Below, one piece after another: positions 25,414 to 36,209 of a stretch of DNA of 64,000 nucleotides (its first letter is position 1; every line of letters begins with the position of its first letter). The position numbers and the translations under genes were made by a program. This stretch comes from Nocardioides bruguierae (GTDB lineage: Bacteria > Actinomycetota > Actinomycetes > Propionibacteriales > Nocardioidaceae), in the NCBI RefSeq assembly GCF_023656415.1, contig NZ_JAMOIL010000003.1, forward strand, positions 1 to 64,000. The letters are read 5' to 3'. The notes under the pieces are model-generated. The model was not told where the DNA came from. It ran no database searches and worked only from the letters and a program-made list of their open reading frames with translations.

Positions 25414-27780
25414 ATGGCGCAGGCAGAGGCGCAGGCACGGGCGCAGGCCGGCGGGGTCGCGGCGAGGTTGGCGGGTCAGCACGTGCTGCTCACCGGTGTC
25501 ACCGGGTTCGTCGGCGAGGCACTGCTGCACCTTTTCCTCACCGAGGTGCCCGACGTCCGCACCACCGTGCTCGTCCGCCCCAAGGGCGCGATCACCGGTG
25601 CGCAGCGCACCGCCAAGCTGCTCGGCAAGCCGATCTTCAGGCAGGTGGTCGAGGCCGCCGGCGGGGTCGAGGCACTGATGGCGGCCAAGGTGGGCGTCCT
25701 GGACGGCGACCTGGCCGACGTCCCCGCCCTGCCCACCGGCATCGACGCGGTCGTGCACTGTGCCGGCGACGTCAGCTTCGACCCGCCCGTGCACGAGGCC
25801 TTCACCACCAACGTCGTCGGCACGCGCGACCTGCTCGCGCGGGTCGCCGAGGTCGAGACCGCCCAGGGCAGCCCCGTCCACTACGTGCACGTCTCCACCG
25901 CCTACGTGGCGGGTCGTCGCCGCGGCCACGTGCCCGAGGCGAGCGTCGAGCACGACGTGGACGTGGCGGCCGAGCTGGCCTGGGGCCTGGCGCAGAAGGG
26001 CGAGGTCGAGCACCGCTCGCGCACCAGCGACAAGCTCGCCGAGCTGAGCGAGGCTGCCGAGCGCACCCACGGCCGCGCCGGCATGCTCACCGCATCCCGT
26101 GCGGCCGAGGAGGCCCGCAAGCAGTGGGTGAAGGACGAGCTGGTCCGGGTCGGCACCGAGCGTGCCCGCAGCCTCGGCTGGACCGACTGCTACACCTTCA
26201 CCAAGGCGCTGGGCGAGCGGGTCGTCGAGGCCCACGCCGCCGGCGGCCGAGTCGTCTCGATCGTCCGCCCGAGCATCATCGAGTCCGCGCTCGAGCGGCC
26301 CTACCCGGGCTGGATCGAGGGCTTCAAGATGGCCGAGCCGCTCATCCTCGCCTACGGCCGCGGTGAGCTGCCGGAGTTCCCGGCCGCGTCCGACACCACC
26401 ATCGACATCGTGCCGGTGGACCACGTGGTCTCCGCCATCGTCGCGGTGCTGGCCCACCCGCCGGCCCCCGCCGAGGTGGCCTACTTCCACGTCTCCTCGG
26501 GCGACCGCAACCCGCTGACCTTCCGCGTGCTCTACGAGCAGGTGCGCGACTACTTCCAGGCCCACCCGTTCGCGGGCGGACCGCGCGGCACCGTCGCGCT
26601 GCCGGCCTGGAAGTTCCCGGGGGCGGCCAGCGTCGAGCGGCTGCTGTCCACCAGCGAGCGTGCCCTCAAGGTCGCCGACTACCTCGTCGACCGGGCACCC
26701 CGCTCGGCCCGCTCGCGGTCGATCGCGACCGGCATCGACAAGCAGAACGCGCGGGTGGAGTTCCTGCGCCGCTACCTGACGCTCTACCAGGAGTACGCGA
26801 AGGCCGACCTGCGCTACTCCGACCGTCGCACGCTGGCGCTGCAGCACTCGCTGTCGCCGGCCGACCAGGCGATCTTCACGTTCGACACCGCCGTGGTCGA
26901 GTGGGCCGTCTACCTGGGCGACATCCACTTCCCGTCGGTGACCAAGCCGGTGCGCCGTCTCGACGAGCTGCGCCTGCGCCGCGAGAAGGGCCGCACCGCC
27001 GGAGGATCCGAGCTGCGCACGGTCGTCGAGGGCCCCGCCGCCGGCGCGACGCCGGAGCAGGGCCCGGGGGAGTCGGACGTCGTCGCCGTCTTCGACATGG
27101 ACGGCACCCTGCTGTCGTCCAACGTGGTCGAGACCTACCTGTGGATGCGCCTGGCCGAGCTCGAGGGCACGGGACGTCTGGCCGAGCTCGCCCGCACCGC
27201 GGCCCGCGTGCCGGGGCTGGTGCGCGCCGAGCGCAAGGAGCGCGGCGCCCTGCTGCGCGCCGTCTACCGGGAGTACGCCGGCGCCGACCTGGCCGAGCTG
27301 GACGCGGTGGCCGACGAGCTGCTCACCGCCCACGTGCTCTCCCGCCTGGCGCCGGAGGCGGTGCGCCGCATCCGCGAGCACCGCCGGGCCGGGCACCGGA
27401 CCGTGCTGGTGACCGGGGCCGTTCGCCCGCTGACCCGCCCGCTGGCGCCGCTGTTCGACCACGTCGAGGCCGTCGACCTGGTGACCGACGCGCGCGGCCG
27501 CGCGACGGGGCACCTGGTCTCCTCGCCGCTGGTGGGGGAGTCCCGCGCAGCGTTCCTGCGCGGCTACGCCAGCGAGCACGGGCTGGACCTGTCGCGCTCG
27601 TTCGCCTACGCCGACTCGCACTCCGACCTGCCGCTGCTGGCCGAGGTCGGCAACCCCGTGGCCGTGAGCCCCGACGTGGCGCTCATGCGGCACGCCCGCC
27701 GCCACCACTGGACGATCGTCGACTGGGCCAGCCCCGAGACCGGACGCCGCACCCTCGACCCCGCCGGGAGCGCCCGATGA
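25414..27780 (+). CDS. fatty acyl-CoA reductase fused to HAD-IB hydrolase
   Basis: 788 residues. The N-terminal part (about 1-500) is an extended SDR/male-sterility-type acyl-CoA reductase: VLLTGVTGFVGEAL (26-39), VVHCAGDVSFD, VHVSTAYVAGRRRG and the catalytic pair in CYTFTKALGERVV (about 259), plus the C-terminal sterile domain. Residues 555-788 are a HAD-IB hydrolase with VFDMDGTLLSSN, VTGAVRPL and YADSHSDLPLL. The reductase should turn acyl-CoA into fatty aldehyde or alcohol; the HAD part could be a phosphatase. The ATG follows CAGGAGGA, and TACGGT at 25363 could be the -10. First gene of a four-gene operon, overlapping the next by ATGA. Confidence 0.9.
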   Translation: MAQAEAQARAQAGGVAARLAGQHVLLTGVTGFVGEALLHLFLTEVPDVRTTVLVRPKGAITGAQRTAKLLGKPIFRQVVEAAGGVEALMAAKVGVLDGDLADVPALPTGIDAVVHCAGDVSFDPPVHEAFTTNVVGTRDLLARVAEVETAQGSPVHYVHVSTAYVAGRRRGHVPEASVEHDVDVAAELAWGLAQKGEVEHRSRTSDKLAELSEAAERTHGRAGMLTASRAAEEARKQWVKDELVRVGTERARSLGWTDCYTFTKALGERVVEAHAAGGRVVSIVRPSIIESALERPYPGWIEGFKMAEPLILAYGRGELPEFPAASDTTIDIVPVDHVVSAIVAVLAHPPAPAEVAYFHVSSGDRNPLTFRVLYEQVRDYFQAHPFAGGPRGTVALPAWKFPGAASVERLLSTSERALKVADYLVDRAPRSARSRSIATGIDKQNARVEFLRRYLTLYQEYAKADLRYSDRRTLALQHSLSPADQAIFTFDTAVVEWAVYLGDIHFPSVTKPVRRLDELRLRREKGRTAGGSELRTVVEGPAAGATPEQGPGESDVVAVFDMDGTLLSSNVVETYLWMRLAELEGTGRLAELARTAARVPGLVRAERKERGALLRAVYREYAGADLAELDAVADELLTAHVLSRLAPEAVRRIREHRRAGHRTVLVTGAVRPLTRPLAPLFDHVEAVDLVTDARGRATGHLVSSPLVGESRAAFLRGYASEHGLDLSRSFAYADSHSDLPLLAEVGNPVAVSPDVALMRHARRHHWTIVDWASPETGRRTLDPAGSAR

Positions 27781-29003
27781 CCGTCGCCCTGGAGATGTTC
27801 CGGTCCGTGCCGCGGACCCTGGCCGGCAAGGCCATGGGCAGCCGCATGCCCGGCATCCTGTCCGGCTTCGCCGCGCCGCTGCGGGTGGCGAGCCCCGAGG
27901 CCCCCAAGGCCACCGGCAAACCCGGCTGGGCCCGGCTGCGCACCCGGCTGTCGGGCATCTGCGGCTCCGACCTCGGGATGCTCTCGGGTCGCACGTCGCT
28001 GTACTTCTCGGCCGTCGTGTCGCTGCCGTTCACGCCCGGTCACGAGGTGGTCGCCGACCTGGTGGACGACTGCGAGGACCTGCCCGCCGGCACCCGCGTC
28101 GTCGTCGACCCGGTGCTGACCTGCGCCGCGCGTGGCGTGGAGTCCTGCGAGGCCTGTGCGGTCGGCGCGACGAACCGCTGCTCGCGGATCACGGTCGGGC
28201 ACCTCTCGCCCGGCCTGCAGACCGGCTTCTGCGCCGACACCGGCGGTGGGTGGGGCCAGCAGCTGGTCGCGCACCGCAGCCAGCTGCACCCGGTGCCCGA
28301 CGCGCTCACCGACGAGCAGGCCGTGCTGGTCGAGCCGATCGCGTGCGCCGTCCACACCGCCCTGCGCGCGGGCGTGCAGCCCGGTGACCGGGTGCTCGTC
28401 TCCGGCGCCGGCGCGGTCGGCCTGCTGGCCACGCTCGCCCTGCGCGAGCTGACGCCGGCCGCCGAGGTCCTCGTGGTCGCCAAGCACCCGCTGCAGAAGG
28501 AGATCGCCCGGCTCGCCGGCGCGACCGACGTGGTGGCACCGTCCGAGGTGCTGCGCCGGGTGCGCCGCTCCACCGGCGCCTTCCAGCTGCGCCCGGAGTT
28601 CTCGCGTCCCTACCTGCTGGGTGGCGTGGACGTGGCGATCGACGCCGTCGGGTCCGCCGCCTCCCTCGAGACCGCCATGGGCGCCACCCGCGCCGGCGGA
28701 CGCGTGGTCGTCTCCGGGATGCCGGCCCCGGCCAACCTCTCGGCGCTGTGGTTCCGCGAGCTCGAGCTGGTCGGCACCTACGCCTCGGCCCGCACCGAGG
28801 CGTCCCTGACCGGCCCGGACGGCGCCGAGCGGGGCTCGTTCGACGCCGCCGTCGACCTGGCCGCCCACGAGGCCGTCGCCGCGATGGCCGACTCGGTGGC
28901 CCGCTACCCGCTGCACCGCTGGCGCGAGGCGATCGACCACGCGCACTCCGCCGGTCGCCTCGGCACCGTCAAGGTCGCCTTCTCACCGGGCAGCCGCTCG
29001 TGA
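27777..29003 (+). CDS. zinc-binding alcohol dehydrogenase family protein (MDR)
   Basis: 408 residues, medium-chain dehydrogenase. Catalytic zinc ligands are suggested by SGICGSDLG (about residue 60) and PGHEVV. The structural zinc lobe is present as CAARGVESCEACAVGATNRC with four Cys, and the Rossmann motif is VLVSGAGAVGLLATL. The enzyme should oxidise an alcohol or reduce an aldehyde; a fatty alcohol/aldehyde is suggested by its position. The start overlaps the stop of the reductase gene (ATGA), so the two are translationally coupled. Confidence 0.88.
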   Translation: MTVALEMFRSVPRTLAGKAMGSRMPGILSGFAAPLRVASPEAPKATGKPGWARLRTRLSGICGSDLGMLSGRTSLYFSAVVSLPFTPGHEVVADLVDDCEDLPAGTRVVVDPVLTCAARGVESCEACAVGATNRCSRITVGHLSPGLQTGFCADTGGGWGQQLVAHRSQLHPVPDALTDEQAVLVEPIACAVHTALRAGVQPGDRVLVSGAGAVGLLATLALRELTPAAEVLVVAKHPLQKEIARLAGATDVVAPSEVLRRVRRSTGAFQLRPEFSRPYLLGGVDVAIDAVGSAASLETAMGATRAGGRVVVSGMPAPANLSALWFRELELVGTYASARTEASLTGPDGAERGSFDAAVDLAAHEAVAAMADSVARYPLHRWREAIDHAHSAGRLGTVKVAFSPGSRS

Positions 29004-29121
29004 GGGACGAACGAGTGGCGTGGGCCCGGGGAGGTCGAGCAAGCGGCGCGACCGAGGCACGAGGGCGCGGCGGCGCGTCGAGACCCAGTACTACTGCACG
29101 AGAGATCAAGGTGGAGCACCC

Positions 29122-30705
29122 GTGAGCAGACCCGGATTCGTCCTGGAGGTCGACGACCGCACCCCGCCGCTGGTCGTCCACGAGGGCCTCGGCTTCCGCA
29201 TGGAGGAGTTCCCGCTGGGGACCCGCGTCGTCTACCCGCCGGAGTCGCTGCCGGCCATCGACGACGTGGACGGCGCCATCCGCGACGCCCTGCTGAACCC
29301 CGTCGACTCCGAGCCGCTGCCCGAGCTGCTGTTCTCCGGCATGCGACTGACGATCGCCTTCGACGACCTCTCGCTGCCGCTGCCCACGATGCAGCGACCC
29401 GACGTCCGCCAGCGGGTGATCGAGGCAGTGCTGACCCTGGCCGCCGCCGCGGGCGTGGACGACGTCGAGATCATTGCCGCCAACGCGCTGCACCGCCGGA
29501 TGAACGCCGCCGAGCTCGAGCACATCGTCGGCGAGCGCGTCTTCCGGTCGTTCTACCCCCAGGGCAAGCTCTACAACTTCGACGCCGAGGACCGCGACGC
29601 GCTCGCGCACCTGGGCACCACCGACGAGGGCGAGGACGTCGAGATCAGCAAGCGGGCCGCCGAGTCCGACCTGCTGGTCTACGTGAACCTCAACCTGGTG
29701 GCGATGGACGGCGGGCACAAGTCCGTCGGCGTGGGGCTGTCGTCCTACACCTCGCTCAAGCACCACCACACGGCCAAGACGATGGTGCACAGCCGGTCGT
29801 TCATGGACCACAAGGCCTCGAAGATGCACCACTCCGCGTGGCGCATGGGTCGGCTCATCAAGGACCACGTGAAGGTCTTCCAGATCGAGACGACCGTCAA
29901 CAACGACGTCTTCCCCAAGCCCTTCGACTTCCTGATGAAGCGCGAGTGGGAGTGGAACCTCAAGGACCAGGCGTCCATGCTCGCCGCCCGTCGCGGCCTG
30001 GCGGTGGCCCCGCAGAAGCTGCGGCACAAGATCTTCCACGACATGCGCGCCCCCTACGGCCTGACCGGCGTCAACGCCGGCGAGGTCGAGGCCGTGCACG
30101 AGCGGACGATCGCCAAGGTCCACCAGCAGCAGCTGGTCGAGGTCGACGGCTACTCCGACGTCCTCGTGCTGGGAGTGCCCTACCTGGGCCCCTACAACGT
30201 CAACAGCTCCATGAACCCGATCCTCGCGACCTGCATGGGCCTGGGCTACTACTTCAACTCCTACCGCGGCCACCCGATGGTCAAGCGCGGGGGAGCGGTG
30301 ATCCTCTACCACCCGCTCAACGAGGGCTTCAACCAGCTGCACCACCCCTCCTACGTGGACTTCTACGAGGAGGTGCTCGCCGAGACCACCGACCCGCAGG
30401 TGATCGGGGAGAAGTACGAGAAGCAGTTCGCCGAGGACCCCTGGTACCGGCACCTGTACCGCACCTCGAACGCCTACCACGGCGTCCACCCGTTCTACAT
30501 GTGGTACTGGGCGGCGCACGCCATGGACCACGTCGGCGACGTCGTCTGGGTGGGCGGCGACCGCAAGGTCGCCAAGCGGCTCGGCTTCCGCGCGGCGTCC
30601 TCGCTCAACGACGCCCTGGAGATGGTCTCGGGGTCCGTGGGCACCAGCCCCTCGATCACCTACCTGCACAACCCGCCGCACATCCTCGCGGACGTGAAGG
30701 TCTGA
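29122..30705 (+). CDS. LarA-like (lactate racemase-fold) protein
   Basis: 527 residues, about 100 longer than LarA. LarA-type marks are visible: FDDLSLPLP near residue 80, the catalytic His region ANALHRRMN (about 123), and MDGGHKSVGVGLSSY (about 195) matching the GGAK segment whose Lys binds the nickel-pincer nucleotide, followed by LKHHHTAKT with candidate nickel His. The cofactor genes larB, larC and larE are not in the window. The C-terminal 200 residues (Tyr/His-rich) lack an obvious counterpart. The reaction is unknown: racemisation or epimerisation of a hydroxy-acyl compound is a guess. The GTG follows AAGGTGGAG; 118 bases separate it from the dehydrogenase gene. Confidence 0.82.
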   Translation: MSRPGFVLEVDDRTPPLVVHEGLGFRMEEFPLGTRVVYPPESLPAIDDVDGAIRDALLNPVDSEPLPELLFSGMRLTIAFDDLSLPLPTMQRPDVRQRVIEAVLTLAAAAGVDDVEIIAANALHRRMNAAELEHIVGERVFRSFYPQGKLYNFDAEDRDALAHLGTTDEGEDVEISKRAAESDLLVYVNLNLVAMDGGHKSVGVGLSSYTSLKHHHTAKTMVHSRSFMDHKASKMHHSAWRMGRLIKDHVKVFQIETTVNNDVFPKPFDFLMKREWEWNLKDQASMLAARRGLAVAPQKLRHKIFHDMRAPYGLTGVNAGEVEAVHERTIAKVHQQQLVEVDGYSDVLVLGVPYLGPYNVNSSMNPILATCMGLGYYFNSYRGHPMVKRGGAVILYHPLNEGFNQLHHPSYVDFYEEVLAETTDPQVIGEKYEKQFAEDPWYRHLYRTSNAYHGVHPFYMWYWAAHAMDHVGDVVWVGGDRKVAKRLGFRAASSLNDALEMVSGSVGTSPSITYLHNPPHILADVKV

Positions 30706-30707
30706 GC

Positions 30708-31700
30708 ATGGGCGTCGGTGAGTTCCTCTCCGGCGGCGTCGCGGACGTCCGCCGGACCGCGCGCGGGTTCCGCTGGGGCCGGCGCGGCCAGGTGCCGCGC
30801 TCGGCCGAGCCGTACGTGCTGCCGCAGCACAGCACCGTCTTCGACACGGGCTGGGCGCGGCGTCCTGCCGTGATGGCGGCCCGCGAGATCGCGCAGAAGG
30901 TGGGCCTGGAGCCGCTGTTCCGCTCCCAGGTGCACACCCGCGTCGAGGGTCTCGACGTGCTCGAGCGCCTCGACGGCCCGGTCATCTTCGTGGCCAACCA
31001 CGCGAGTCACCTCGACACGCCCCTGCTGCTGCTGTCGCTGCCCGACGCCTGGCGGCGGAAGACGGCCGTCGCGGCGGCCGCGGACTACTTCTTCGACACC
31101 TGGTGGAAGGCCGTCGGCTCCTCGCTGGTGTTCAACACCTTCCCGATCGACCGGCGCGGCGGCTCCATGGCCGCCACCCCGGGCGAGGTGCTCGCGGACG
31201 GCTGGTCGCTCGTCGTCTACCCCGAGGGCACCCGGTCGCGCGACGGGTGGCTCCAGGGCTTCCGGATGGGCGCGGCGTTCCTCGCGCAGACCCACGACGT
31301 GCCCGTCGTGCCGGTGGCCCACCGCGGCACCTTCGCGGCCATGCCGCGCGGCGCCGGGTGGCCGTCGAGGACGGATGGTCGTCGACGCGAGGTCACCGTG
31401 CGCTTCGGGGAGCCCCTGCGGGCCGCCGAGGGCGAGTCGGTGCGCGAGTTCGCGCCCCGGATCAAGGACGCCGTCGCGGCGCTGCTCGACGAGGAGCGGA
31501 CGTCCTGGTACGAGGCCCAGCTGCGGCGCTCGGCCGGCACCACGCCGGACCCGTCGGGCCCCGACGTGGCCGCCTGGCGGCGCGTGTGGGAGCAGACCGA
31601 GCCGGTCGCCGGTGACGCCGTCGGCCGTGGGCGGCCGACCCCGTGGGACCGCGTCCGCACCGAGGCCCGCGTCCGGGCCAAGGCGGCCCTCAAGCGCTGA
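30708..31700 (+). CDS. lysophospholipid (PlsC-type) acyltransferase
   Basis: 330 residues. PlsC/LPLAT fold with catalytic FVANHASHLDTPLL (about residue 93), the acceptor-binding VVYPEGTRSRDG (about 170) and VPVVPVAHRGTF. It should transfer an acyl group from acyl-CoA or acyl-ACP to a lysolipid or similar acceptor at the membrane. The gene starts two bases after the LarA-like stop, so it belongs to the same operon. The 60-residue Arg-rich C-terminus is extra. A large hairpin follows. Confidence 0.9.
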   Translation: MGVGEFLSGGVADVRRTARGFRWGRRGQVPRSAEPYVLPQHSTVFDTGWARRPAVMAAREIAQKVGLEPLFRSQVHTRVEGLDVLERLDGPVIFVANHASHLDTPLLLLSLPDAWRRKTAVAAAADYFFDTWWKAVGSSLVFNTFPIDRRGGSMAATPGEVLADGWSLVVYPEGTRSRDGWLQGFRMGAAFLAQTHDVPVVPVAHRGTFAAMPRGAGWPSRTDGRRREVTVRFGEPLRAAEGESVREFAPRIKDAVAALLDEERTSWYEAQLRRSAGTTPDPSGPDVAAWRRVWEQTEPVAGDAVGRGRPTPWDRVRTEARVRAKAALKR

Positions 31701-31762
31701 CGCCTGCCGGGACGTCATACGGGGCGGACGCAGTGTCCCTCAGACGTATGACGTCCTCGGCG
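31701..31762. terminator. hairpin between convergent genes
   Basis: Perfect 12-bp arms GGACGTCATACG (31710-31721) and CGTATGACGTCC (31745-31756), with an inner GGAC/GTCC pair and outer CGCC/GGCG. It lies just before the stop of the convergent response-regulator gene and probably ends transcripts from both sides. Confidence 0.7.
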
Positions 31763-31764
31763 GC

Positions 31765-32439
31765 TCAGAGCACGAAGCGGTAGCCCATGCCGCGGACGGT
31801 GCTGATCGCCTCGGCGCCGAGCTTCTTGCGCAGGTAGCCCACGTAGACGTCCACGACGTTGGAGCCAGGGTCGAAGTCGAAGCCCCAGACCCGGTCGAGC
31901 AGCTGCTCGCGGGAGAGCACCTGGCCGGCGTGGCTCATGAACAGCTCGGCCATGGCGAACTCCCGCGCGGAGAGGTCGACCTCGGTGCCGTCGACGCGGG
32001 CGCGGCGGGTGCGCAGGTCCAGGCTGATCCCGCCGGCCTCGAGCACGTCGCGGCCGCGCGCCTCGTCCGCGACCGCCTGGGCCTGCCGCAGCCGCAGCCG
32101 CACCCGCGCCTGGAGCTCGGCGAACCGGAACGGCTTGGAGAGGTAGTCATCGGCCCCGCCCTCGAGGGCCGAGACGGTGTCGGTGACGGAGTCCCGGGCG
32201 GTCAGCACCACCACGGGCACGCGGCTGCCCTGCGAGCGCAGCTGCTCGAGCACCTCGAACCCGTCGATGTCGGGCAGGCCGATGTCGAGGACGACGAGGT
32301 CGGCGTCGCCGGCCAGCGCGTGGTCGAGCGCCGACAGGCCGTCGCCGACGACGGTCGTCTGGTGACCGTCGGCCCGCAGCCCCTTGGCCACGAAGGACGC
32401 GATCCGCTCCTCGTCCTCGACGATCAGGATGCGGGCCAC
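31765..32439 (-). CDS. OmpR-family response regulator
   Basis: 224 residues. Receiver domain (1-120) with phospho-acceptor Asp in LVVLDIGLPDIDG (about 52), Thr in VVVLTARDS and Lys in DDYLSKPF. Winged-helix DNA-binding domain (130-224) with SAREFAMAELFMSHAGQVLS, SNVVDVYVGYLRKKLG and VRGMGYRFVL. The GTG follows AGGAGG. It overlaps the histidine kinase gene by 16 bases, so the two form a cognate pair. Confidence 0.95.
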   Translation of the reverse strand: MARILIVEDEERIASFVAKGLRADGHQTTVVGDGLSALDHALAGDADLVVLDIGLPDIDGFEVLEQLRSQGSRVPVVVLTARDSVTDTVSALEGGADDYLSKPFRFAELQARVRLRLRQAQAVADEARGRDVLEAGGISLDLRTRRARVDGTEVDLSAREFAMAELFMSHAGQVLSREQLLDRVWGFDFDPGSNVVDVYVGYLRKKLGAEAISTVRGMGYRFVL

Positions 32440-33937: not shown

Positions 33938-34363
33938 TCAGTCGTCGTCGCGGTCGTCACGGTCGTCGTCGGAGGAGTCGTCGTCGGAGTCGTCCGCGCC
34001 GTCGTCGTCATCATCGTCGTCGTAGTCCGGGACGACGAGGTCGGGGTCGTCGCGGTCGTCGTCGCGGTCGTCGTCACGGTCATCGTCACGGTCGTCGGAG
34101 TCGTCGCGACCGGAGCGGTCGTCCCTGTCGTCCTTGCCGTCGTCAGACCGGTCGTCGCGGGTGCCGCGGCCGGTGGCGTCGTCGGAGGGACCGGTGCCGG
34201 GCGAGGCGGTGTCCGAGGGTGTGGCGGTGCCGGGGGAGCGCAGCACGATCGGGGCGCGGCGCTCCTCCTCGTCCTCGCCGGAGGAGGCCCAGGCGACGGA
34301 GCCGGCGAGGCCGAGGGCGAGGAGCAGGGCCAGGCCGAGCCCGGCGGTCATCCAACGGTTCAT
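33938..34363 (-). CDS. Asp/Arg-repeat secreted or anchored protein
   Basis: 141 residues. An N-terminal hydrophobic segment (about 5-26, LGLALLLALGLAGSVAWA) serves as signal peptide or anchor. After a Pro/Ser/Thr spacer, residues about 70-141 are almost only Asp, Arg and Ser, with repeated Arg-Asp-Asp-Asp units and a run of seven Asp. The tail could bind Ca2+ or other cations. No family is recognised. It leads an operon with a histidine kinase and response regulator, so it may modulate or report to that sensor. Confidence 0.75.
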   Translation of the reverse strand: MNRWMTAGLGLALLLALGLAGSVAWASSGEDEEERRAPIVLRSPGTATPSDTASPGTGPSDDATGRGTRDDRSDDGKDDRDDRSGRDDSDDRDDDRDDDRDDDRDDPDLVVPDYDDDDDDDGADDSDDDSSDDDRDDRDDD

Positions 34364-34637
34364 GACGAGGACGATCCTGCCCGAGGATGACGCCTGCGTG
34401 AGCCGTTCATGAGAGCCATCTCATCCGCGTCGGGGATCGGGGACCGCGGCGCGGCCGGGCGCCGCCAGGGTCGACCGGCCCGGGACCTTCGCGGCGGAGC
34501 GTGCCGCTGAGCGTGCTCAGCCGTCCGCTCAGCGACGTCCGCCGCGTGACGCCGGGGCAGTCTCGGACGTCCGGCCTACAGTGGCGGCGGTCACATCTGC
34601 GACCGCCGCCCGAGCTCCGCCACCGCCAGGAGGGCCC

Positions 34638-36209
<1,572 letters not shown>

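Follow-up and report, generated by a model that had tools for sequence, protein, structure and literature searches.

The first 64,000 nt of contig NZ_JAMOIL010000003.1 of the actinobacterium Nocardioides bruguierae (assembly GCF_023656415.1; this whole stretch is referred to as the window) contain an operon of four genes, which code for a fatty acyl-CoA reductase (FAR) fused to a HAD phosphatase (FAR-HAD), a zinc-dependent medium-chain dehydrogenase (ADH), a LarA-like enzyme with a single catalytic histidine and a PlsC-type acyltransferase. The operon may represent a dedicated lipid-tailoring pathway built from two modules, one comprising FAR-HAD and PlsC, the other comprising ADH and LarA as a coupled hydride-transfer pair, a reading that we regard as about evenly poised between right and wrong. 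In the first module, the FAR domain would reduce a long-chain acyl thioester to an aldehyde or alcohol, and PlsC would acylate a phosphorylated polyol (glycerol-phosphate-like) backbone, the phosphate of which would be taken off by the HAD domain. Such an acylated and dephosphorylated backbone is suggested because PlsC resembles a lysophosphatidic acid acyltransferase and the HAD domain a phosphatase. In the second module, ADH and LarA would perform a coupled hydride transfer on a secondary hydroxyl of the backbone, the single-histidine LarA taking a hydride from, or giving one to, the same centre as ADH and in one direction. The chemistry would then consist of an oxidation plus a one-way inversion or internal hydride shift, and not of an alpha-hydroxy-acid racemisation. 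We infer the substrates, the order of the steps and the lipid nature of the end product, which is probably a lipid part not yet described.

Analysis of the genomic context was based on relatives of the window's LarA. The cut-off of its family model, NF052592, was exceeded in 86 of 396 genomes sampled from the phylum and in 42 of 394 sampled from the class, the window's genome being present in both samples. Longer flanking sequences were used for 80 of these genomes (the window's genome excluded) and for 20 matches below the cut-off (14 from a divergent clade and six from the Frankiaceae genus g271), and a further 80 named loci were the best 80 of at least 565 confirmed relatives. After subtraction of 11 duplicates, judged by LarA sequence, these 180 loci yielded 169, namely 14 divergent loci (L222-L235) and 155 core loci that include the six of g271. 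All loci were picked by LarA similarity, and the shares given here hold for relatives of the window's LarA only. The closest named LarA among the best 80 of the at least 565 matches is 95% identical and belongs to Nocardioides sp. GY 10127.

The genes for FAR-HAD, ADH, LarA and PlsC were found in the same order and on the same strand in 111 of 126 core loci (adequate flanks on both sides; FAR within 5 kb). In the remaining 15, either ADH was not detected (L087) or no PlsC gene adjoins LarA (14 loci, all of family f18). A preliminary description of this DNA had proposed a four-gene operon with a lipid flavour; the family scans agree with the four gene identities named there, and a neighbourhood comparison over a broad range of actinobacteria, asking whether the genes are kept together in relatives, did not refute the operon. 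Grouping of recurring open reading frames (ORFs) in 60 loci of at most 20 kb each gave the same picture: the four families were present in 60, 59, 57 and 56 of the 60 loci, and the other recurring groups were out-of-frame or antisense ORFs over the four genes and one TetR-like group (first 46 groups, present in five or more loci; groups not scanned against families). Within the genus, LarA exceeded the cut-off in 34 of 118 genomes, and FAR-HAD (E 1e-30 or better) was found in the identical 34. Chance proximity of the four genes is ruled out by the recurring groups, the conserved order and this co-occurrence in the same 34 genomes. Pairwise protein distances of the four proteins correlate with r values of 0.855-0.887 (112 loci), the best of 500 shuffles per pair reaching 0.155, which shows a shared history of the kind that common descent of the genomes gives as well.

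The divergent clade L222-L235, whose LarA sequences are 37-42% identical, was treated as a different system because the operon partners are absent: FAR or ADH was found in none of 13 loci with upstream flank and PlsC in none of 12 loci with downstream flank. These loci have the same D-x-x-L feature as the operon LarA, and in nine of the 14 a gene whose product begins like a family III CoA-transferase, as judged by eye, is located some 1.6 kb upstream of LarA. In three loci of family f18 (L095, L097, and L098), genes for MarR-type regulators are situated between ADH and LarA, L097 also carries a MOSC-domain gene, and no PlsC follows LarA; a scan of some of the ORFs of three loci gave no functional hint for the insertions between ADH and LarA.

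The fusion protein consists of a fatty acyl-CoA reductase-type domain (residues 26-342; Pfam NAD_binding_4, 2.3e-46) and a HAD-IB phosphatase domain (residues 558-742; Pfam HAD, 1.5e-33), the latter exceeding the cut-off of NCBIfam TIGR01490 (HAD-IB). A C-terminal Sterile-type part is weak (PF03015, 1.2e-05, 25.8 bits, below the cut-off of 35.4). The closest solved relative is the fatty acyl-CoA reductase 7eoz (2.4e-47), and of 144 relatives, 141 have FAR and HAD fused in a single ORF. Residue counts for the motifs of FAR, HAD and ADH were taken from alignments, as pattern counts would include cut ORFs. The catalytic pair of the YxxxK motif (Y260 and K264) is present in 135 of 136 aligned FAR relatives, as are G31 and G34 of the nucleotide motif GxxGFxG, and G28 in 133. 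All 136 aligned HAD sequences carry D561, D734, and D738 (DxDxT and the motif IV acidic pair) and a threonine or serine at position 667; position 563 is occupied by aspartate in 95 and by glutamate in 41, and T565 is found in 130. The PlsC protein matches the Pfam family Acyltransferase (4.4e-22), scores 61.8 bits against TIGR00530 (below the cut-off of 102.95) and has a sole PDB match, the 1-acyl-sn-glycerol-3-phosphate acyltransferase 5kym (2.9e-10). It bears the motifs NHASHLD (HX4D) and EGTR, the corresponding patterns [NH]HxSxxD and EG[TS]R being present in 131 and 109 of 133 related ORFs, respectively.

These families could also serve a catabolic operon that degrades an exogenous alkyl or polyol lipid, FAR being run as an aldehyde-to-acyl-CoA oxidation. 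The patchy presence in the genus would suit accessory catabolism, as would the TetR-like gene found nearby in 22 of 60 loci. However, the only PDB match of PlsC is an acyltransferase of biosynthesis, and the ORF survey described above showed no gene group in addition to the TetR-like one and the four families; we strongly doubt this explanation. The TetR-like gene itself, named by eye and present in these 22 loci (L082 and 21 others of L062-L121), was not counted as a fifth member. It is a candidate regulator; in 13 cases it is located divergently upstream of FAR-HAD, and in nine it follows PlsC in the same orientation.

The second module pairs the dehydrogenase with LarA. ADH matches the Pfam families ADH_N (9.2e-16) and ADH_zinc_N (2e-14), and its nearest solved sequences are the ketose reductase 1e3j, a putative zinc-binding dehydrogenase and an L-idonate 5-dehydrogenase. 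The named PDB relatives comprise ketose reductase and idonate, sorbitol, xylitol, arabinitol, butanediol, and threonine dehydrogenases, and some of the 17 PDB matches are named just "alcohol dehydrogenase." Because the named relatives include polyol dehydrogenases, ADH should act on a secondary hydroxyl, and this likeness to polyol and threonine dehydrogenases speaks against the plain alcohol dehydrogenase step that had been proposed earlier. The catalytic zinc ligands are conserved in most of the 146 aligned relatives (C62 in 141, H89 in 140, and E90 in 145). All five sequences without C62 belong to genus g271, and the same is true for those without H89, save L091, which is gapped there. The four structural cysteines are conserved except in a few clades. 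Five loci (L068, L092, L099, L100, and L216) keep the catalytic ligands of ADH, have lost the four structural-zinc cysteines and show EGGR in place of EGTR in PlsC.

Against NF052592, an NCBIfam model for LarAH14/15/16 that covers LarAH groups of Desguin et al. (2020; PMC7583248), the window's LarA reaches 912 bits (cut-off 740). The AlphaFold model of the monomer has a predicted local distance difference test score of 90.9, with low confidence in the loop of residues 83-86. Its nearest fold is 9q3k from Streptococcus plurextorum (Z 39.8, root-mean-square deviation 2.4, 453 residues), followed by 9q3j from Blautia wexlerae (Z 36.6), and lactate/malate racemase entries give Z values of 26.9-30.6, among them LarA of L. 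plantarum (5huq; Z 28.8, root-mean-square deviation 3.3, 410 residues) and Mar2 (6d6z; Z 27.7); the Thermotoga homologue 4nar gives Z 21.2. Residues D82, H124, K200, and H216 align with the ribose-binding aspartate, the first catalytic histidine, the lysine that holds the nickel-pincer nucleotide (NPN) and the nickel histidine, respectively, and all four are present in each of the 149 core relatives outside g271. The protein should accordingly be read as a predicted NPN-binding enzyme.

The active site differs from that of a racemase in one place and, by alignment, tentatively in a second. The position of the second catalytic histidine (His174) is taken by N191, and by asparagine in 143 and threonine in six of the same 149 relatives; the match of N191 to His174 comes from a sequence alignment with a one-residue gap close by. 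The only histidine of the window's LarA within residues 184-199 is H199, which adjoins the NPN lysine and varies among the core loci (histidine in 114 of 155). Position 85, the site of Arg73/75 and a leucine in the window, is occupied by leucine, isoleucine, cysteine or valine in 149 of 149 relatives and never by lysine, an alignment-based mapping that is tentative because the loop around it has low model confidence. In the Isosphaera enzyme, this arginine holds the NPN phosphate and the substrate carboxylate (PMC12611868). Without a second histidine and, as far as the alignment shows, without the arginine that binds the carboxylate, the label "hydroxy-acid racemase" is doubtful. LarA groups 14 and 15 have been reported to be without an equivalent of His174 (PMC12393405; PMC12611868), and Desguin et al. 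(2020; PMC7583248) suggested that proteins without one histidine may catalyze hydride reactions of other kinds.

An ordinary NPN-dependent alpha-hydroxy-acid racemase or epimerase, with the neighboring genes supplying or using the acid, would agree with the name hydroxyacid isomerase given to NF052592, with the LarA fold and with the co-occurrence of cofactor genes. Against this speak the replacement of His174 and, by alignment, of Arg73/75 in the family, and seven assays for racemase or epimerase activity in which a LarAH14 protein from Frankia sp. gave negative results (PMC7583248, Table 1). The membership of that protein in NF052592 is one that we infer from the group number, and its negative result is weak evidence because the available text gives the strain only as Frankia sp. 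and part of the Frankiaceae are without the NPN lysine. No known reaction for NF052592 LarAH14/15/16 was found in the literature searched; the name LarAH15 denotes an active gluconate epimerase of Phytophthora in PMC11770544, apparently under a different numbering. On balance, an ordinary racemase appears quite unlikely.

The link to nickel-cofactor genes, for which the preliminary description had suggested looking at larB, larC and larE, was borne out. In the window's genome, LarB lies beside LarC and LarE exceeds its cut-off. A single Lar_N match, the operon LarA, was obtained there, and the cofactor pathway of this genome therefore has one client as far as the family search shows. Across the genus, LarC (PF01969) is present in 44 of 118 genomes, which divide into all 34 LarA-positive genomes and ten of the 84 others (Fisher 5e-21). 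In the phylum sample, it was found in 76 of 86 LarA-positive genomes vs. 172 of 310 others (Fisher 6e-9).

A natural loss of catalytic residues has occurred in genus g271 of the Frankiaceae. Its LarA (loci L236-L241 and L248-L250) shows glycine or alanine instead of K200, valine instead of N191 and glycine or glutamate instead of N189, each in nine of nine readable loci, and in ADH both C62 and H89 are changed in seven of seven. The partner proteins remain intact in their motifs, FAR-HAD in eight of eight and PlsC in four of four readable loci. LarC is missing in nine of ten g271 genomes, the tenth having a piece of 46 positions, and was found in eight of eight genomes of three sister genera. 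No stop codon was found in the matched stretches of LarA and ADH, the frames of which are open. The joint loss of residues in ADH and LarA suggests that the two enzymes catalyze one common step or two interdependent steps, and the retention of both frames hints at a structural role.

These losses also bear on the linear route of the preliminary description, in which acyl-CoA would be converted by FAR to a fatty aldehyde or alcohol, followed by an alcohol dehydrogenase step, a LarA step on a hydroxy-acid-like intermediate and esterification by PlsC. The outcome of such a route would be a wax-like or storage lipid. The families are indeed those named, FAR and PlsC suit acyl chemistry, and the relatives of ADH called simply "alcohol dehydrogenase" would fit. 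However, the best-named relatives of ADH use polyols, the missing second histidine and, by alignment, the missing arginine that would hold an alpha-hydroxy acid argue against a hydroxy-acid-like intermediate, and the route has no place for the HAD phosphatase domain, despite its fusion to FAR in nearly all loci. It is further weakened because it does not predict the grouping seen in the Frankiaceae, where losses pair ADH with LarA and set them apart from FAR-HAD and PlsC. The linear route is therefore considered decidedly unlikely. The class of the product, including the earlier suggestion of a storage compound, cannot be told from the sequence.

Several observations weigh against the two-module pathway. 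The types of substrate proposed for FAR, ADH and PlsC derive from remote relatives, neither ADH nor PlsC scores above the cut-off of any NCBIfam model, and no enzyme activity or lipid was found for any member of the operon families in the literature searched. Among the 145 core loci whose downstream flank is long enough, 17 show no PlsC match (16 of family f18 and L191), and the four genes are not inseparable because PlsC does not adjoin LarA in the 16 f18 loci. The lineage of L087 (genome G263) carries an intact LarA without a detected ADH and is a counter-case to a joint step of the two enzymes. The co-occurrence counts for the cofactor genes ignore the relatedness of genomes, and a LarC match is missing in ten of the 86 LarA-positive genomes of the phylum, some of which are incomplete. 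Three of the genomes without a LarC match, G106, G263, and G294, are 95, 98, and 96% complete, and the NPN residues of their LarA (loci L078, L087, and L096, respectively) are intact, which may reflect a divergent cofactor pathway or else gaps in the assemblies. Finally, pairwise ratios of non-synonymous to synonymous substitution rates (Ka/Ks) of 0.23-0.59 for LarA and ADH of g271 point to some purifying selection. For LarA, the ratio is 0.23-0.28 in close pairs and 0.43 in the most distant pair, vs. 0.09-0.15 in a sister genus; selection is relaxed, yet the gene is still constrained. As LarA and ADH are still under selection in g271, a non-catalytic role is likely there.

A more specific form of the two-module pathway would place a nickel-pincer step in lipid biosynthesis, the first such. 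The single-histidine LarA and the zinc dehydrogenase would transfer hydride in one direction, whether in an inversion, an internal shift or a reductive coupling, at a hydroxyl or aldehyde of a lipid backbone, in a complex with FAR-HAD and PlsC, and both hydride enzymes would be kept as dead partners in one Frankiaceae genus. This proposal is tentative and, in our judgment, somewhat doubtful.

The coordinates of the operon and its immediate surroundings are given in Table 1. The start codon of LarA was chosen by means of its ribosome-binding site and the alignment to relatives. The tight coupling of the genes claimed in the preliminary description applies to the ATGA overlap of FAR-HAD with ADH and to the short distance between LarA and PlsC; coupling is not tight throughout because 118 bases part the stop codon of ADH from the start of LarA in the window copy. 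Among 17 further Nocardioides loci, with starts assigned by script, this gap is between -4 and 109 bases; its median over 145 loci is 20 bases, and the median distance between FAR-HAD and ADH is -4 bases (133 loci). The convergent ending of the operon is confirmed by the response regulator gene on the opposite strand, and the inverted repeat between the two converging genes is possibly a terminator or a binding site.

Table 1. Features of the four-gene operon and its downstream border in the window.
Feature	Position	Strand	Length	Remark
FAR-HAD fusion	25414-27780	+	788 aa	ATG start downstream of AGGAGG
ADH, Zn-dependent medium-chain dehydrogenase, polyol-dehydrogenase-like	27777-29003	+	408 aa	ATGA overlap with FAR-HAD
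LarA-like single-histidine NPN enzyme	29122-30705	+	527 aa	GTG start
PlsC-type acyltransferase	30708-31700	+	330 aa	Starts two bases past the LarA stop
Perfect 12-nt inverted repeat	31710-31756	.		Arms 31710-31721 and 31745-31756, 23 nt between; between convergent genes
Response regulator	31765-32430	-		Convergent with PlsC; next gene downstream

Further downstream, a short ORF on the minus strand (33938-34363) codes for a protein with a very acidic, aspartate-rich tail; it is located upstream of a histidine kinase gene and is oriented like the two-component genes. A gene for an AMP-ligase (34581-36209), 2.9 kb downstream of the operon, was not counted as a member, as strong downstream matches were obtained only in five loci of the same genus.

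The LarA superfamily includes whole groups without a known reaction, and its single-histidine members cannot use the textbook two-histidine mechanism. The operon provides one such group with a tight genetic context, and the natural loss in g271 connects the catalysis of this group with a zinc dehydrogenase. Cultivated hosts of the operon (Nocardioides, Kribbella, Actinomadura, and relatives of Frankia) allow a search for the product. If the proposed pathway holds true, the nickel cofactor would enter lipid metabolism, probably in the making of a new actinobacterial lipid. The preliminary description knew of no characterized pathway with this set, and none was found in the literature searched; the searched literature (subscription journals and supplements lay outside the search) did not link a LarA-type protein with genes for fatty acyl-CoA reductases or acyltransferases. 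The available text of papers on the LarAH groups does not tie NF052592 to FAR, ADH or PlsC genes. The main text of a proteomics study of Frankia (PMC8951365) mentions neither racemase nor acyl-CoA reductase, and its passages on lipids, acyltransferases and hopanoids led to no gene of the operon. The set and its likely use of a nickel cofactor thus appear undescribed, though each protein belongs to a known family.

With respect to LarA, lactate and malate racemases (5huq and 6d6z) have the fold, the lysine for covalent NPN attachment and the nickel histidine in common with the operon protein; these racemases use two catalytic histidines, whereas the operon family has one and, by alignment, lacks an arginine at the carboxylate position. 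Closer counterparts are the single-histidine LarA proteins 9q3k and 9q3j (PMC12611868), which are 24 and 23% identical to the operon LarA in the structural alignment and, like it, carry an asparagine at the position of the second catalytic histidine together with the NPN lysine and the nickel histidine. Three residues after the aspartate, they have a lysine (Lys76 and Lys78), in contrast to the leucine, isoleucine, cysteine or valine of the operon family, a difference that is alignment-based and falls in the low-confidence loop. Their gene context is glycolytic (PMC12611868), whereas that of the operon LarA is lipid-like.

With respect to the operon as a whole, the available text on the myxobacterial elb operon describes FAR, HAD, an AGPAT-like acyltransferase, NAD-dependent enzymes and one protein of unknown function, and insertion into elbD strongly lowers ether lipids (PMC9131029). 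An actinobacterial counterpart of this route, in which FAR, HAD, acyltransferase and oxidoreductase would yield an alkyl-ether glycerolipid, would account for the FAR, HAD and AGPAT-like acyltransferase activities common to both. We nevertheless consider such a counterpart unlikely, as the operon lacks the ACS and ACP domains found in ElbD, the likeness concerns described activities only, and the available text names neither a LarA-type protein nor a zinc dehydrogenase for elb. ElbD combines FAR, ACS, ACP, and AT in one protein, and no such protein is found among the four genes of the window, where HAD is the fusion partner of FAR, the acyltransferase has a gene of its own, and the set also includes a zinc dehydrogenase and a LarA-type protein. 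As judged from its description, the elb operon is the nearest known combination of activities, with a different architecture.

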